From a virus, in IMG/VR virus record IMGVR_UViG_3300044961_000622, positions 1 to 37,389 of that record: 37,389 nt of DNA; one strand, written 5' to 3'. The notes beneath the pieces are model-generated. The model did not search any database. It was not told where the DNA came from and saw nothing but the letters and a program-made list of their open reading frames with translations. A program made the position numbers and the translations under genes. Shown here one piece after another: positions 2,089 through 16,119 of the stretch (position 1 is the first letter of the stretch; each line of letters starts with the position of its first letter).

Positions 2089-2117
2089 TTGACAACGTTC
2101 CAGAACGTTCTCATACT
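2089..2117 (+). promoter_or_regulatory. Early promoter (Pe) with palindromic operator in the spacer
   Basis: A consensus -35 TTGACA (2089-2094) and a -10 CATACT (2112-2117) are separated by exactly 17 bp. The spacer holds a near-perfect inverted repeat, AACGTTCCAGAACGTT (2094-2109), mismatched only at its centre, a likely binding site for Ner. Transcription would start about 2123-2125, directly at or one base before the ner ATG at 2126, so ner may be translated from a nearly leaderless mRNA. This promoter would drive the whole early operon. Confidence 0.72.
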
Positions 2118-2919: not shown

Positions 2920-5003
2920 CAACAACAATAATAAAAGACGCTTACTCCGCCGCGGAACTCGCCGCGCTCAAGGTGCCCGGATGGCCGGCAACCGAGTATC
3001 GCATGCGTGCGCGCCTCGCCCGGGAGCGCGTCGCGACGCGTGAAGTCTCGTGCCGCGGCGGCCGCGGCGGCATGCGCCGCGAGTATTTGACCGCTGGACT
3101 GCCCCTACCAATACGCCAGTGGCTCGCCGAGCAGCAGATCAAGCAGGCCGCGCCTGCCGTTGTGCTGCCCCCGCCGGCCGCGGTGGCGCCGACGCGCGCC
3201 GTTGCCGCTGGCGACTTGAGTGAATGGCAGATCGAGGTCGGCAGTGCCCGCGCATGGGTGCTGGACGAGGTGTCGCGCGCGGCCGAGACGACGAGCATGC
3301 GGCGCGCCGCCCGTCTGTTCGTGACCGCGGCGCGCGCCGGCGAGTTGCTGCCGGAAGCGACGGAGATGGTGCGCATCGCCAACGCGCGACGCGGCGCGAA
3401 CGGCCGCATGATCTCGGTGGCCGCGTTGACGCGCTGGCGACAACGCGCGCGGGGTGCGGCGACCCCGGCCGAGCGCATCCGCCGGCTCGCGCCCCGATCG
3501 CGCGGCGTGAAGTGGGCGATGGATGCCGACGTGATCGCCGCGCTCGCCCTCTACCGGCAGCCGAACAAGCCGTCGTTGAACTGGTGCGTGAAGGAGACGG
3601 CGCGCAAGCTCGACGTGCCGTACGGCTCGCTCTACGGGCGCAGCCGCCGCGCCTTGGGCAAGGTTCCGGCGCCCGCGTTCTACCCGGTCCGCAACAGAGG
3701 CGCCGCGCTGCGCGCGATGCTGCCGTTCCGACGGCGTGAATTCCAGTCGATGCTGCCGAATGACGTCTGGATCGGCGACGGCCACAGCGCGAAGTTGAAG
3801 ATCGCGCATCCCGAGACCGGCAAGCCGTTCGTGCCCGAGGTCACCGTGGTGATGGACGTGCAGTCGCGCTACGTTGTGGGCTGGAGCGTCGCGCTCTCGG
3901 AAAACTGCCTCGCCGTCTCGGACGCGCTGCGGCACGGCATCGCGCGGCATGGCACGCCGCTCATCTATTACTCAGACGGCGGCGCGGGCCAGACCGCCAG
4001 GATGCTGGACGCGCCGCTCACCGGCATCTTGCCGGCGATGGGCATCGAGCACAGGACCGGCCGGCCGGGGCACCCGCAAGCGCGCGGCGTGATCGAGCGC
4101 TTCTGGCCGACCGTCCTGATTCCGCTCGCACGGCGCTTCGCGACCTATCAGGGGCGCGGCCACGACCGCGAGACGCTGCGTCAGGTCATCACCGAGATCG
4201 ACCGGCAGCTGCGGGAGGCGAGCCGCGGCGAAGTGGTCGCGCTGCCGAGCAAGCTGCCGACGTTCCAGCAGTTCCTCGACGCGCTCGACCAGGAGATCGA
4301 GACCTACAACGCGACGCACCGCCACACCTCGCTGCCCAAGCTCGATGGCGTCAATCACGCAACGCCGGCGGAGTATCGCACTGCGCGGCTCGGCGAGGCC
4401 GACATTTACGTGCCGAGCGAGCAGGACGTCGCCACGCTCTTCATGCCGTCGGTGGTGCGGGTTGCCAGGCGCGGCGAGGTGCGGCTGTGGAACGGCGTCT
4501 ATTTCCATCGCGATCTCATGCTCGTCGACGGCGAGCGCGTGCAGGTCGGTTACGACATCCACGACGCCTCCCGCGTGCTGGTGAAAAAAATCACCGGCGA
4601 GCCGATCGCGTGGGCCTCGCTCGACGGCAACCGCGATGGCTGGCAGCCGAAGGCGCTGATCGAGCAACTGCGCGAGCAGCGCGCCGGGCGACGCATGGCG
4701 CGCCTCGAAGAGAAGATGGCGGACGTGCGCGCCGAGCTTCGGGGGGCAATGCCCGCCGCGCCCGCCCTCGACCCCATCGAGATCGCGCCCGAGCCCGAGC
4801 CGGACAACGTCGTGGCGCTCGCGCCCGGCGCGCGGCCGCAGTTTTTCGGGGACACCGGCGACATCGAGAAGTACCGCTGGCTGCTGGCGCACGAAGGGCT
4901 TATCACGGATGAAGATCGCGCCTGGATCGCCTGGTATCGCACGACCAGCGAATGGGCGGACATCTTCGGCGACGAGCCGCGGCGCGAAGCGGAGAGCTAC
5001 TAG
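2916..5003 (+). CDS. A: Mu A-like DDE transposase
   Basis: 695 residues from ATG 2916, close to Mu A (663). The open frame continues upstream to 2448, but GGGAGG at 2905-2910 and the start of the Mu-type DNA-binding domain (residues about 8-55) fix the start. The catalytic core shows D288 (WIGDGHS), D354 (YYSDGGAGQTA) and E394 (ARGVIERFW), the DDE triad with spacing like Mu D269/D336/E392. The following GEVRLWNGVYF...DGERVQVGYDI segment is the Mu transposase C-terminal beta-barrel, then a basic helical tail, which in Mu contacts B and ClpX. It excises nothing: it performs replicative strand transfer of the phage ends. Confidence 0.95.
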   Translation: MTTTIIKDAYSAAELAALKVPGWPATEYRMRARLARERVATREVSCRGGRGGMRREYLTAGLPLPIRQWLAEQQIKQAAPAVVLPPPAAVAPTRAVAAGDLSEWQIEVGSARAWVLDEVSRAAETTSMRRAARLFVTAARAGELLPEATEMVRIANARRGANGRMISVAALTRWRQRARGAATPAERIRRLAPRSRGVKWAMDADVIAALALYRQPNKPSLNWCVKETARKLDVPYGSLYGRSRRALGKVPAPAFYPVRNRGAALRAMLPFRRREFQSMLPNDVWIGDGHSAKLKIAHPETGKPFVPEVTVVMDVQSRYVVGWSVALSENCLAVSDALRHGIARHGTPLIYYSDGGAGQTARMLDAPLTGILPAMGIEHRTGRPGHPQARGVIERFWPTVLIPLARRFATYQGRGHDRETLRQVITEIDRQLREASRGEVVALPSKLPTFQQFLDALDQEIETYNATHRHTSLPKLDGVNHATPAEYRTARLGEADIYVPSEQDVATLFMPSVVRVARRGEVRLWNGVYFHRDLMLVDGERVQVGYDIHDASRVLVKKITGEPIAWASLDGNRDGWQPKALIEQLREQRAGRRMARLEEKMADVRAELRGAMPAAPALDPIEIAPEPEPDNVVALAPGARPQFFGDTGDIEKYRWLLAHEGLITDEDRAWIAWYRTTSEWADIFGDEPRREAESY

Positions 5004-8983: not shown

Positions 8984-9508
8984 ATGGCAACGATGCAGGA
9001 AATCGAACGGCTGACCGCCGACTACGCCGCGGCCTACGAGGCGCTCGCCGCCGCGGTGATGGAGCACGAGGAGGCCAAACGCGAACTCGCGAGACGCGCG
9101 CTGCCGCGCATCCGCAAGCTCGTGATCGCGGAGAAAGAGCGCCGCGCGGCGCTCGGCGCCGCGATCGAGGCGAGCCCGGAACTATTTACCCGGCCGCGCA
9201 CTGTGACGCTGCACGGCGTGCGCGTGGGGTACATGAAAGCCAAGGGCCGCATCGTGTGGGACGACGAGGCCGCGGTGATCGCGCGCATCCGCAAGCTCCT
9301 GCCGGAGGCGCAGGCGGAACTGCTCATCCGGGTGAAGGAGTCCGTGCACAAGCCCGCGGTCTACGACCTCACCGCAGGCGACCTCAAGCGCCTCGGCATC
9401 CAGATCGAAGGCGACGGCGACGAGGTGCTGATCCGCTCCGCCGCCGGCGAGGTCGACAAACTCATCGAGGCGCTGCTCAAGGAAGCGCCGGAGGAGGTGG
9501 CGGCATGA
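8984..9508 (+). CDS. gam: Mu Gam-like DNA end protection protein
   Basis: 174 residues, the same length as Mu Gam. ATG 8984 is preceded by AGAGGAAA. The N-terminal half is a long helix (about 1-65, coiled coil), followed by the conserved beta region with VTLHGVRVGYMKAKGRIVWD and a C-terminal VYDLTAGDLKRLGIQIEGDG segment typical of the family. Mu Gam is an orthologue of Ku that binds double-strand ends and blocks host exonucleases such as RecBCD. The longer open frame upstream (to 8678) is not used because it overlaps the previous gene completely. Confidence 0.9.
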   Translation: MATMQEIERLTADYAAAYEALAAAVMEHEEAKRELARRALPRIRKLVIAEKERRAALGAAIEASPELFTRPRTVTLHGVRVGYMKAKGRIVWDDEAAVIARIRKLLPEAQAELLIRVKESVHKPAVYDLTAGDLKRLGIQIEGDGDEVLIRSAAGEVDKLIEALLKEAPEEVAA

Positions 9509-9823: not shown

Positions 9824-10321
9824 GTGCGATTTTCGGCGATTTCACGCGCGGCTGCTCTGCACGATCACCCGGCGGGTTTCCTGTCGATCGTGCTCGCTGG
9901 CGCGTACGTCGAGGTGCGGCCGGTGACCATCGATCCGTGCTTCGGGCGCGGCGCTCCAGGCACGCTGCACTGGGAGGATGAGGCGCGCGAGCGGACGTAT
10001 CCCACGCTGCGCAGCGCGGGCTCGATCGCATGGCGCCCCGCGTCCGCCCGCCACAAGATCACCGCGGTGGAGCCCGGCACTTGGACGCTGTTCGTGTTCG
10101 TGGGGGGGCGAAGCCAATGGTGGGGCTACTACACGCCGGCGGGGAAGGTTCACTGGCGAGATTACTTGAGGCGGTTAACAGACTCCCCAGCCGGCGGAGG
10201 GACAAATCACCGGCGGTCCGCGATGGCAGCCGGCTCGCGCACACCCGCCAGCCGGTCCTCTCCTCCTTCGGGCGCCAGGCGCGGACACCTTTTTGAGAGA
10301 GGAGAGAGGCGTGAGGCGTGA
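9824..10321 (+). pseudogene. Cupin-like phage protein, C-terminal part in a shifted frame
   Basis: The frame reads ALHDHPAGFLSIVLAGAYVE, PGTWTLFVFVGGRSQWWGYY and TPAGKVHWRDYL, the conserved core of a cupin-like family common after gam in Mu-like phages, with a metal-ligand-like HDH. It lacks the usual N-terminus, which is found in the preceding 32-codon ORF in a different frame. The last 45 codons (from about 10185) are Ser/Arg/Pro-rich and unlike the family, so the true end was probably near 10185 and the tail is read-through. A run of seven G inside GGRS is another weak point for frameshifting. Confidence 0.5.
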
Positions 10322-10325
10322 GGCG
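10305..10325 (+). repeat. Heptamer tandem repeat (AGAGGCG/TGAGGCG x3)
   Basis: Three tandem 7-bp units, AGAGGCG, TGAGGCG, TGAGGCG, overlap the GTG start (10311) of the next gene and form its purine-rich Shine-Dalgarno region. The same heptamer, four perfect copies, lies at 32534-32561 at the start of the tail tip gene. Seven is not a multiple of three, so copy-number change would shift the start frame. Confidence 0.6.
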
Positions 10326-10883
10326 AAAGGGCAACCCACCGAACGTTCGATCGGCGCGCCGCTCAACCCGGGCGACACCGCGCTATACACCGGCGACGCG
10401 GAGTACTGCGGCCGGCGCTGCACCATCGACTCGTGGAGCCCGGGGAGAAAGCGCGTGCGCATCCTCGTCGCGATCGGCGCGCACGTCGCGATGCGCTCGG
10501 TCAAGCCCGAGAGCCTCAAAAGGCTCGGGGGGGGGGGTTACTGGGTGACTGACTGTTTCCCGAGGCGGCGCGCGTACGCGACCATCTGCTCGGCCGAGGC
10601 CGGCCAGTCCTCGCCGGCGAGCCAGCGCCGCACGGTGCGATCGGAGACGTCGAGCAGCCTGGCGACCGCGCGGATCGAGCTGTTTTTGCGCGCCACGGCC
10701 ACGCGCAACTGCGCGACGAATTCGGTGCGCGCCCGCCGCGACACGTCGCTGCGTCGCTTGCCCTTCGGCCAATGTCCGCGACCATCTGTACGCACTGTGT
10801 GCATGCTGTTCATCGGAGAAAGTGCCGCGGAATACGCAGCCCGATTCTGGCTGGTTCGCTTCGCTTCTTGCTTCCTTCAATGA
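10311..10883 (+). CDS. Small phage protein with poly-G tract; read-through tail
   Basis: From GTG 10311 the protein contains LNPGDTALYTGDAEYCGRRC, TIDSWSPGRKRVRILVAIGA and RSVKPESLKRL, the full pattern of a small (about 75-residue) beta-rich phage protein of unknown function. It then enters eleven G (10527-10537). In this frame it continues another 115 codons, antisense to the HTH gene, to 10883. One base more or one fewer in the G run would stop it within a few codons (TGA 10546-10548 or nearby). The biologically normal product probably ends just after the G run; the long tail is likely non-native or phase-variable. TTG 10293 is an alternative start. Confidence 0.55.
   Translation: MRREAKGQPTERSIGAPLNPGDTALYTGDAEYCGRRCTIDSWSPGRKRVRILVAIGAHVAMRSVKPESLKRLGGGGYWVTDCFPRRRAYATICSAEAGQSSPASQRRTVRSETSSSLATARIELFLRATATRNCATNSVRARRDTSLRRLPFGQCPRPSVRTVCMLFIGESAAEYAARFWLVRFASCFLQ
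10527..10537 (+). repeat. Homopolymer of eleven G inside a coding end
   Basis: Eleven consecutive G encode Gly4 in the small protein above and lie directly beside the stop codon (TAA, 10540-10538 on the minus strand) of the convergent HTH gene. Runs of this length slip readily in replication and in sequencing. Confidence 0.9.
10538..10813 (-). CDS. Minus-strand helix-turn-helix regulator in the early region
   Basis: 91 residues from ATG 10813; a second ATG (10804) is possible. After a basic N-terminus (GHWPKGKRRSDVSRRARTEF) comes a clear HTH: VAQLRVAVARKNSSIRAVAR, LLDVSDRTVRRWLAGEDWP. It is the only minus-strand gene between the early and late regions and is convergent with the small gene before it and divergent from gemA. 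Its candidate promoter (TTGACA at 10929-10924, TATATG at 10907-10902) contains an eleven-base C run in the spacer. Likely a regulator of the middle region or of gemA; its target is unknown. Confidence 0.7.
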   Translation of the reverse strand: MNSMHTVRTDGRGHWPKGKRRSDVSRRARTEFVAQLRVAVARKNSSIRAVARLLDVSDRTVRRWLAGEDWPASAEQMVAYARRLGKQSVTQ

Positions 10884-10901
10884 GGCCGCGGCGAGTGGAA
10901 G

Positions 10902-10929
10902 CATATAGCGGGGGGGGGGGTGATGTCAA
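10902..10929 (-). promoter_or_regulatory. Promoter of the HTH gene with poly-C spacer
   Basis: On the minus strand a consensus TTGACA (10929-10924) is followed by a 16-bp spacer and TATATG (10907-10902), or by 18 bp and TATGCT (10905-10900). Eleven of the spacer bases are one C run (10920-10910). Spacer length controls strength in sigma-70 promoters, so gain or loss of one base would change expression. The same bases, read on the plus strand, are the G-rich ribosome binding site of gemA. Confidence 0.55.
10910..10920 (+). repeat. Homopolymer of eleven G before gemA
   Basis: Eleven G end two bases before ATG 10923. They act as the only Shine-Dalgarno-like sequence of gemA, and on the other strand fill the promoter spacer of the HTH gene. 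Confidence 0.9.
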
Positions 10930-11357: not shown

Positions 11358-11827
11358 TGCCCTGGTATCGCATCCGTGATCGCATCCGTGGCAAAGTACC
11401 GTCCATGTGTAATCTGCGCTCATCGATTCTTGCCCTGGCGCTGGCGGCGTCGTTCGCCGCCGGCGCGACCGATTACGGGCCGTATCGCGCGCAGGTGGTG
11501 CACGTGATCGACGGCGACACGCTGGAGCTGCGCGTCGCGATCTGGCCGCAGCACACGGTGCAGACCGTGGTGCGGCTCGCCGGCATCAACGCACCGGAGC
11601 TGCGCAGCGGCCCGCCGTGCGAGCGCGAGGCTGGCAGGCGCGCGGCGGAGTTCGTGCGCGCCTGGGCGGCGCGGGGTGGCCGTATCACGCTGACCGTGAC
11701 CGGGCGTGAGAAATACGGCCGCCCGCTCGGCGCGATCGCGCGCGACGGCGAGGATCTCGCCGCGGCGCTCATCGCCGCCGGTCACGCGCGTCCCTACGAC
11801 GGCGGCCGGCGCGAGGCGTGGTGCTGA
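11357..11827 (+). CDS. Exported thermonuclease-like protein (SNase family)
   Basis: 156 residues from ATG 11357, which overlaps the gemA stop and has GAGGGGGCGG upstream. A second start at ATG 11405 would give 140 residues beginning with a good signal peptide (MCNLRSSILALALAASFAAG) cleaved near GA-TDYGPY. The mature part is a staphylococcal-nuclease fold: VIDGDTLELRV, VVRLAGINAPELRSG (Arg73, Glu81), and TVTGREKYGRPLGAIA with the second catalytic Arg. The usual Asp of RLAGIDAPE is Asn78. A secreted or periplasmic nuclease placed between gemA and mor could degrade incoming DNA or scavenge; role unknown. Confidence 0.8.
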   Translation: MPWYRIRDRIRGKVPSMCNLRSSILALALAASFAAGATDYGPYRAQVVHVIDGDTLELRVAIWPQHTVQTVVRLAGINAPELRSGPPCEREAGRRAAEFVRAWAARGGRITLTVTGREKYGRPLGAIARDGEDLAAALIAAGHARPYDGGRREAWC

Positions 11828-12132
11828 TGAGCGACTCCGCCAAATACCCCGTGTTTCACGAAGACCTGGCGGCCAAACTGGCCGCCTTGCTTATCGGCGA
11901 GGGGCTGCCGGGTGACCGCGCTCACGCGCTCGCGCGCCGGCACGTGGACGACGTGCGCCGCGACTGGGGCGGCATGAAGGTCTACATCCCGATGGGGCGC
12001 GACATCGACAACGCGGCGCGCAATGCGGAGATCGTCCGGCGCTGGAACGGCCGCAACACCGCCGAGCTGTGCCGGGAGTACCGCATCAGCGAGCCGCATC
12101 TGCGCCGCATCGCCGGCCGGTCGGCCGGATAA
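11827..12132 (+). CDS. mor: Mor/C-family transcription activator
   Basis: 101 residues from ATG 11827 (overlap with the nuclease stop). The N-terminal dimerisation part (YPVFHEDLAAKLAALLIGEG, RAHALARRHVDDVRRDWGGM) is followed by the strongly conserved KVYIPMGRDIDNAARNAEIV and a C-terminal helix-turn-helix (NTAELCREYRISEPHLRRIA). Mor activates the middle promoter and C the late promoters in Mu; only one family member is seen here, so it may do both. Its stop codon overlaps a 24-bp element that is repeated before gene I. Confidence 0.92.
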   Translation: MSDSAKYPVFHEDLAAKLAALLIGEGLPGDRAHALARRHVDDVRRDWGGMKVYIPMGRDIDNAARNAEIVRRWNGRNTAELCREYRISEPHLRRIAGRSAG

Positions 12133-14658: not shown

Positions 14659-16119
14659 ATGCCCAACCAACGCCTGGCGCCGGATGCGCTGCTCGTCCAG
14701 ACGAACCTCGCCGGCGCGGTCGGCGACATCGATGACGATCCGGATTCGCCGGACGGCGCGTGGCTCACGCACAACGGCGGCAACGGCGACACCGACTGCC
14801 GCGTCTCGTTCCCGACGCCGACGGGCAACCCGACGGTGGGCGCCGGGCTGCAAGAATTCCGAGTCTTAATCAGGAAGAACGCCTCCGGCGGCAACAGCAC
14901 GACCTGGTCGCTCGCGCTGTGGGAGAACGGATCGCAGGTGTCGGTGCTCGCCACCGGCACTGTGACCACGACCACCGGCGAGGTGGTGGCGGGCACATGG
15001 AACGCCAGTGCGCTGTCCGGTGCCGACGGCGCGCAGGTGGAGTGCCGCCTGCAGCAGACCGGCGGCGGCTCCTCCGGCGGCGGCTCCAACCGCCGCCGCA
15101 TCGAGATCGGCGCGGTGGAATGGAATGCCGAATACACCGCGGCCGGCGCCGCGCTGGAGGGTGCCGCCGCGGCCGAGGCCGCCGCCACGGGCGATCTCAC
15201 GACCGGCATCGCGCTTGCTGCCGCCGCCGCGGCCGAGGCCGCCGCCACCGGCGACCTTGCGACCGGGATACCGCTCGCGGGCGATGCAGCCGCCGAAGCG
15301 GCCGCCGAAGGCACGCTGAGTAATGCGGCAGCCGCGCTGGAGGGGGACGCTGCCGCCGCTGCCACCGCCGCGGGCGATCTCACGACCGGCATCGCACTCG
15401 CTGGCGCTGCGTCAGGCGAGGCCGCCGCCACCGGCGACCTTGCGACCGGGATACCGCTCGCGGGCGACGCAGCCGCCGAAGCCGCGGCCGAAGGCACGCT
15501 GACCGGCGCGCCGGCCGCACTCGAGGGTGACGCGACGGCCCAGGCCGCCGCCACGGGCGATCTCACGACCGGCATCGCGCTCGCGGGCACTGCGGCAGGC
15601 GAGGCCGCCGCCACGGGAGATCTCGCAACCGGCATTCCGCTTGCGGGCGCGGCTGCCGCCGCTGCCACCGCCCAGGGCACGCTGACGGATGCGCCGGTCG
15701 CGTTCGAGGGCGGCGCCGCAGCCACCGCCGCAGCCGCGGGCACGCTCTCGCGCGGCGTGGCATGGCCGCCGTACGCGCAGCTCGCCTTCCGCGATTACGC
15801 CGTGCGCCGCGCCTCCGGGCTGGTGCGCAGCCAGATCGAGTCCGGCCCGCCGCGGCAGCACCGCCTCCGCCGCCGCGTGATGATCGACCGGCCGGCCACG
15901 GTATGGCTCGACAGTCATGCCGACTATCAGGCGTTCATCGCGTGGGTCGAGGCGGAGCTCGCACTCGGCGTGAAATGGTTCGACTGGATCGATCCCGTGG
16001 ACGGCCAGATGAAACTCGCGCGCATCAAGGACGGGCAGTTGCTGCGCGAGGCGCCGGCGCGCCGGCAGATGGACCACTGGCGCGTCAGTCTGACGATTCA
16101 GACCTGGGGCAACGCATGA
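14659..16119 (+). CDS. Chimeric protein: beta domain, Ala-rich repeats, tail-tip paralogue
   Basis: 486 residues in three parts. Residues 1-155 form a beta-rich domain (EFRVLIRKNASGGNSTTWSL...). Residues about 156-366 are ten repeats of 20-21 residues with consensus LAGxAAAEAAATGDLTTGI, arranged as triplets of about 61 residues. Residues 367-486 align end to end with the 120-residue tail protein encoded at 31288-31650 (about half identical, sharing TVWLDS, ADYQAF and WFDWIDPVDG). Part of the DNA is the same too: 29 bp at 15976-16004 equal 31510-31538. It sits in the lysis module, next to another virion-type gene, so it is an unusual duplicated tail component. Confidence 0.75.
   Translation: MPNQRLAPDALLVQTNLAGAVGDIDDDPDSPDGAWLTHNGGNGDTDCRVSFPTPTGNPTVGAGLQEFRVLIRKNASGGNSTTWSLALWENGSQVSVLATGTVTTTTGEVVAGTWNASALSGADGAQVECRLQQTGGGSSGGGSNRRRIEIGAVEWNAEYTAAGAALEGAAAAEAAATGDLTTGIALAAAAAAEAAATGDLATGIPLAGDAAAEAAAEGTLSNAAAALEGDAAAAATAAGDLTTGIALAGAASGEAAATGDLATGIPLAGDAAAEAAAEGTLTGAPAALEGDATAQAAATGDLTTGIALAGTAAGEAAATGDLATGIPLAGAAAAAATAQGTLTDAPVAFEGGAAATAAAAGTLSRGVAWPPYAQLAFRDYAVRRASGLVRSQIESGPPRQHRLRRRVMIDRPATVWLDSHADYQAFIAWVEAELALGVKWFDWIDPVDGQMKLARIKDGQLLREAPARRQMDHWRVSLTIQTWGNA
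15139..15760 (+). repeat. Ten-fold Ala/Gly/Thr-rich coding repeat
   Basis: Ten units of about 60-63 bp, each coding about 20 residues, are organised in three near-identical triplets plus one unit; for example GGCGATCTCACGACCGGCAT recurs at the same place in each first unit. Such DNA can recombine, so copy number may differ between related phages. Confidence 0.8.

Follow-up and report, generated by a model that had tools for sequence, protein, structure and literature searches.

A candidate promoter with a poly-C spacer upstream of a reversed regulator gene in a Mu-like transposable phage

Introduction

In Neisseria meningitidis, unstable homopolymers located between the -10 and -35 elements of porA, opc, and fetA are thought to alter sigma-factor binding (PMC2791445). 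The length of the C run in the promoters of the Bordetella pertussis genes fim2, fim3, and fimX sets transcript levels, with one additional base accompanying a 3.8-fold lower fimX transcript level (PMC1891110). For the divergent fimbrial promoter of Haemophilus influenzae, a variable region is reported to control transcription of both genes (van Ham 1993, cited in PMC2791445 and PMC5084427). In this study, we analyzed an 11-base poly-G run in a 37,389-nucleotide (nt) viral sequence, IMG/VR record IMGVR_UViG_3300044961_000622 (here called the window, i.e., the whole stretch of DNA analyzed). The run lies where a small early gene (gene X), gemA, and a helix-turn-helix gene of the minus strand meet, and it may serve as the spacer of a promoter for the helix-turn-helix gene.

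Homopolymer promoter spacers have hitherto been known from pathogen surface genes. The titles and abstracts that we searched contained no phage example, consistent with the initial annotation of the window, which regarded such a switch as undescribed for this phage group. Single accessory genes are well known in Mu-like phages, and those of Pseudomonas have morons and regions of genomic plasticity (PMC4378225).

Results

The run of 11 G residues (positions 10910 to 10920, plus strand; here run 2) forms, on the minus strand, a C11 tract between a consensus -35 hexamer and two overlapping -10 boxes. The -35 element, TTGACA (10924 to 10929, minus strand), overlaps codons 1 to 3 of gemA on the opposite strand. 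One -10 box, TATATG (10902 to 10907, minus strand), follows a 16-nt spacer and is the box named in the initial annotation, which had described this arrangement exactly. The other, TATGCT (10900 to 10905, minus strand), has an 18-nt spacer, was the match returned by the consensus scan (10 of 12 bases), and scored higher against a standard sigma-70 weight matrix (11.4 bits, versus 9.2 bits for the TATATG site). At 11.4, the minus-strand promoter ranks second in the window, behind a plus-strand site at position 2089 (11.7). Of 20,000 random 127-nt sequences, 1 contained an equally good promoter when drawn at genome composition, and 15 of 20,000 did at local composition. The element looks like a sigma-70-like promoter that points, as the initial annotation had proposed, at the helix-turn-helix gene and is located where a reversed gene would need one. 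We consider it extremely improbable that the match arose by chance from the TGTCAA of the gemA start together with an AT-rich part of the intergenic region. Although a match this good occurred somewhere in 5 of 60 random genomes and the -10 boxes are imperfect, chance does not readily account for the second-ranking site of the window standing directly before a reversed gene, given the low frequencies at the site itself.

A second G11 run, which the initial annotation overlooked, lies within the 3'-terminal part of gene X (run 1; 10527 to 10537, plus strand). Both runs share the 13-mer CGGGGGGGGGGGT in direct orientation, and run 1 directly adjoins the helix-turn-helix stop codon, such that the twin runs mark both ends of that gene. 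No other G/C run in the window reaches 8 bases; 0.010 G runs of at least 11 are expected there from the dinucleotide content, and the longest G/C run in 162.5 kb of related transposable-phage early regions is not above 9. The twin runs likely have a common cause, and the existence of run 1 makes the original observation not only right but stronger than was realized at the time.

A common cause could be the gain or loss of a gene cassette, with the runs representing either the direct repeats of an insertion or tracts copied by recombination. Recombination between the runs would remove the helix-turn-helix gene and bring X next to gemA (X - G11 - TGATG-gemA), as in an ordinary tightly spaced operon; this empty form indeed reads as an overlapping X/gemA junction, and identical direct 13-mers at both gene edges are what such an event would leave. 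In a related contig carrying a homologue of the gene (L011), there is likewise similarity between the two flanks of the cassette (8 of 2,000 shuffles were as good; 1.5% of all windows of sequence). Nevertheless, we regard this explanation as unlikely. The flanks outside the run are not alike in our sequence (435 of 2,000 shuffles), the left flank of the L011 cassette aligns with the left flank here but lacks poly-G, no empty-site relative was found, and gene X has no other known relative. A target-duplicating insertion in the window was rejected because the flanks beyond the run are dissimilar.

Since the C run separates the -35 element from the -10 boxes, insertions or deletions within it would alter spacer length, as the initial annotation had pointed out. 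The spacers for the two -10 boxes are 15 and 17 nt with 10 C residues, 16 and 18 nt with 11, and 17 and 19 nt with 12; the 17-nt spacing thus belongs to TATGCT at 10 C and to TATATG at 12 C. The predicted summed promoter score is 12.7, 11.7, 11.1, and 9.9 log2 units for 10, 11, 12, and 13 C, respectively. Because the two overlapping boxes cover lengths of 10 to 12 C, one-base slips would grade the promoter, and run length probably adjusts regulator transcription rather than turning it on or off. The one-base on/off switch of the initial annotation is therefore replaced by a predicted graded change.

On the plus strand, run 2 is the Shine-Dalgarno sequence of gemA (PF06252; 10923 to 11357, plus strand, starting at ATG 10923 or GTG 10920). 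Its predicted pairing energy with the anti-Shine-Dalgarno sequence (-11.7 kcal/mol) is one of the most favorable among the early genes, in agreement with the earlier view that the run is the only Shine-Dalgarno sequence of gemA. However, any run of 8 to 15 G allows the same 8-bp pairing with 16S rRNA, at -11.7 kcal/mol. TGATG follows directly on the last G whatever the run length, so both the pairing and the distance to the gemA start are independent of it. The promoter scan found no plus-strand promoter of note at run 2, and gemA is read from the early operon. Control of gemA through run length was accordingly rejected. A bidirectional switch of the helix-turn-helix gene and gemA, as originally proposed, is very improbable: a single run does serve both signals, but its length affects neither determinant of gemA translation. 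The proposal is thus supported for the anatomy and direction of the regulator promoter and for the change of its spacer by indels, but not for gemA.

We next consider whether the run length varies. No length variant of either run was seen. The only homologues of the locus found for comparison were L011 and a sister contig (L007, L010, L030), the latter with 11 G in both runs. The sister contig differs from the window at 4 of 14,823 positions and is practically the same virus; the constancy of the runs is therefore hardly tested by this comparison. All four differences cluster within 31 bp of coding region (9153 to 9183). A promoter whose spacer is of fixed length, either accidental or selected, and whose run is kept both as a strong gemA Shine-Dalgarno sequence and as a spacer that has to remain at 16 to 18 nt, is a serious but less likely possibility. 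The 11/11 lengths in both contigs, the buffering of one-base slips by the two -10 boxes, and a gemA Shine-Dalgarno sequence among the strongest of the early genes are all consistent with it. It offers no explanation, however, for the second G11 at the opposite gene end, which has no Shine-Dalgarno or promoter role. G/C runs of 11 are also rarely stable in bacteria, which counts against a fixed length.

A scan of IMG/VR for TTGACA, a run of 9 or more C or G, and TANNNT, with gaps placed symmetrically about a spacer of 15, returned 48 loci (the sister contig and 47 others). Spacers of 16 to 19 nt were found at 29 loci (sister included) and the mirror-image spacers of 11 to 14 nt at 15, counts that are indicative only, as some loci are related or have two -10 readings. 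Since true spacings were commoner than their mirror images, poly-C/G promoter spacers probably occur in other phages. At one marine phage locus (TTGACA to TAAGTT, spacer 17 or 18), the run has 9 C in two contigs (L052:8034-8062 and L067:2385-2413) and 10 C in a third (L044:861-890, minus strand), which is more diverged (97.2% over the run-bearing segment). This difference may be neutral or technical, because the contigs also differ in a poly-A run of this segment.

The place of the helix-turn-helix gene also recurs in related phages. In L011, a homologue (57% identical) is likewise reversed and placed ahead of gemA, the gene for a staphylococcal nuclease-like protein, and mor, and a minus-strand TTGACA (TGTCAA on the plus strand) is again present at the gemA start. 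Unrelated reverse genes occupy this slot in contig L012 and in Microcystis phage Mae-JY22, such that related phages carry unrelated genes at one site; in D3112, all genes at the corresponding place are forward. Because the slot holds a homologue in L011 and other reverse genes in L012 and Mae-JY22, it is, judged by these gene orders, a recurrent place for reversed accessory genes. The C-run promoter is most simply how the reversed gene of the window would be read. Between the window and L011, little of the intergenic stretch is conserved except a 14-nt sequence, TTCAATGAGGCCG (10877 to 10890), which falls in the 5' leader predicted for the helix-turn-helix gene.

The helix-turn-helix gene (10538 to 10813, minus strand) lies opposite to the early operon and encodes a small predicted DNA-binding protein of 91 amino acids (aa). 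Pfam matches fall just under the cutoffs. The predicted structure is a four-helix fold like that of XRE regulators (mean predicted local distance difference test score, 75), and a fold search of the PDB gave XRE-like folds, none below an E value of 0.09. Relatives with the motif RGHW...KRRS...RTxxRW are encoded in different neighborhoods in other phages and in one Isosphaeraceae metagenome-assembled genome, and a search of phage records gave no match to the protein. PADLOC returned only weak helix-turn-helix matches (mad1, E = 1e-4), and assignment as a defense gene was not accepted. Past the stop codon is a hairpin, GAGCCTTTTGAGGCTC (z = -1.5), that lacks a T tract. One viral contig (L040) carries two tandem helix-turn-helix paralogues (98 to 694 and 1099 to 1368) about 400 bp apart.

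Gene X belongs to no family, and phage records contained no match to it. Its coding part up to run 1 (10311 to 10526, plus strand) has a codon-position G+C of 0.89. With 11 G, the frame extends to 10883 (190 aa); with 9, 10, 12, or 13 G, it stops at 78 to 80 aa. The twin runs could accordingly be read as coupled contingency sites, with run 2 setting promoter spacing and run 1 the frame of gene X. Eleven G residues would let early-operon ribosomes traverse the reversed gene to ~37 nt before gemA, whereas lengths in the other two frames would halt them ~370 nt sooner, with possible polar effects on gemA and mor. If this were true, phage individuals would differ heritably in their bias toward lysogeny or early lytic growth. 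We consider such coupling quite improbable. In its long form, gene X reads the complement of the helix-turn-helix gene, and chance alone would be expected to leave this frame open: after synonymous recoding, the opposite frame was still open in 56% of cases for the window and in 74% for L011, and selection for an open plus strand across the reversed gene was rejected. L011 likewise has a plus-strand open reading frame (4681 to 4983) opposite its helix-turn-helix gene, with ATGA overlaps with the preceding gene and gemA; its openness is also expected by chance.

The window virus is a Mu-like transposable phage of the D3112/B3 group. Its genes for a MuA-like transposase (phrog_310), a MuB-like protein, GemA, and Mor (PF08765) stand in Mu order, and the transposase is ~31 to 34% identical to those of transposable phages of Klebsiella, Mannheimia, and Pseudomonas. 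By promoter scoring, the likely early promoter of the operon that includes gene X and gemA is the top-ranking site (TTGACA-17-CATACT; 2089 to 2117, plus strand), which sits just upstream of an early regulator gene (2126), the expected place for an early promoter. The mor-like late activator gene is at 11818 to 12132 (plus strand), and the staphylococcal nuclease-like gene between gemA and mor (11360 to 11827) is present in both L011 and L012. Farther downstream, an Ala-rich 486-aa open reading frame (14659 to 16119) contains degenerate direct repeats (15136 to 15741) that are ~76 to 82% alike.

Discussion

The likeliest reading of our analyses is an accessory regulator read from a promoter of its own that responds to run length, with a one-sided, graded effect on the reversed gene; we give this reading, including the phase variation that we infer, about an even chance. 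The helix-turn-helix gene would be an accessory gene lodged in reverse within the early operon, in the recurrent slot upstream of gemA. A sigma-70-type promoter of its own, with the -35 element over the first gemA codons and C11 as the spacer, would allow the regulator to be expressed from a prophage in which the early operon is silent. Strand slippage within the C run would then shift the -35 element relative to the two overlapping -10 boxes, and the amount of regulator would be graded between phage individuals while gemA translation remained unaffected.

Several observations weigh against this reading. In L011, poly-G is absent and the -10 element (GAAGAT) is weak, so the helix-turn-helix gene family does not need the run. 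Both runs are also 11 in the practically identical sister contig, the helix-turn-helix gene lacks a clear Shine-Dalgarno sequence (-1.7 kcal/mol), and each -10 box matches the consensus at only four of six positions.

If the run varies, a temperate phage would have heritable, reversible noise in a regulator. Judging from the IMG/VR scan, other viral contigs probably carry spacers of this kind as well, one such spacer occurring in two lengths, and the question can be addressed in existing metagenome reads.

The locus combines features of several known systems. Like the morons of Pseudomonas Mu-like phages, the helix-turn-helix gene is an accessory gene that stands by itself between conserved early genes and has a (here putative) promoter of its own; it differs in its reverse orientation beside gemA, in the poly-G at both edges, and in that no terminator was identified. 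The likeness to H. influenzae is a variable promoter region common to two genes on opposite strands. That region is reported to control both genes transcriptionally, whereas the run in the window is a promoter spacer on one strand and a length-insensitive ribosome binding site on the other. The fim promoters of B. pertussis also contain a C run, but the window promoter has a consensus -35 element. In Neisseria porA, opc, and fetA, the homopolymer similarly lies between the -35 and -10 elements. Length variation and its effect on expression have been reported there for surface antigens of a pathogen, whereas the window concerns a phage regulator gene, for which both are predictions. Its promoter further differs from those of Neisseria in that the -10 boxes are two and overlap and that the run has a twin.
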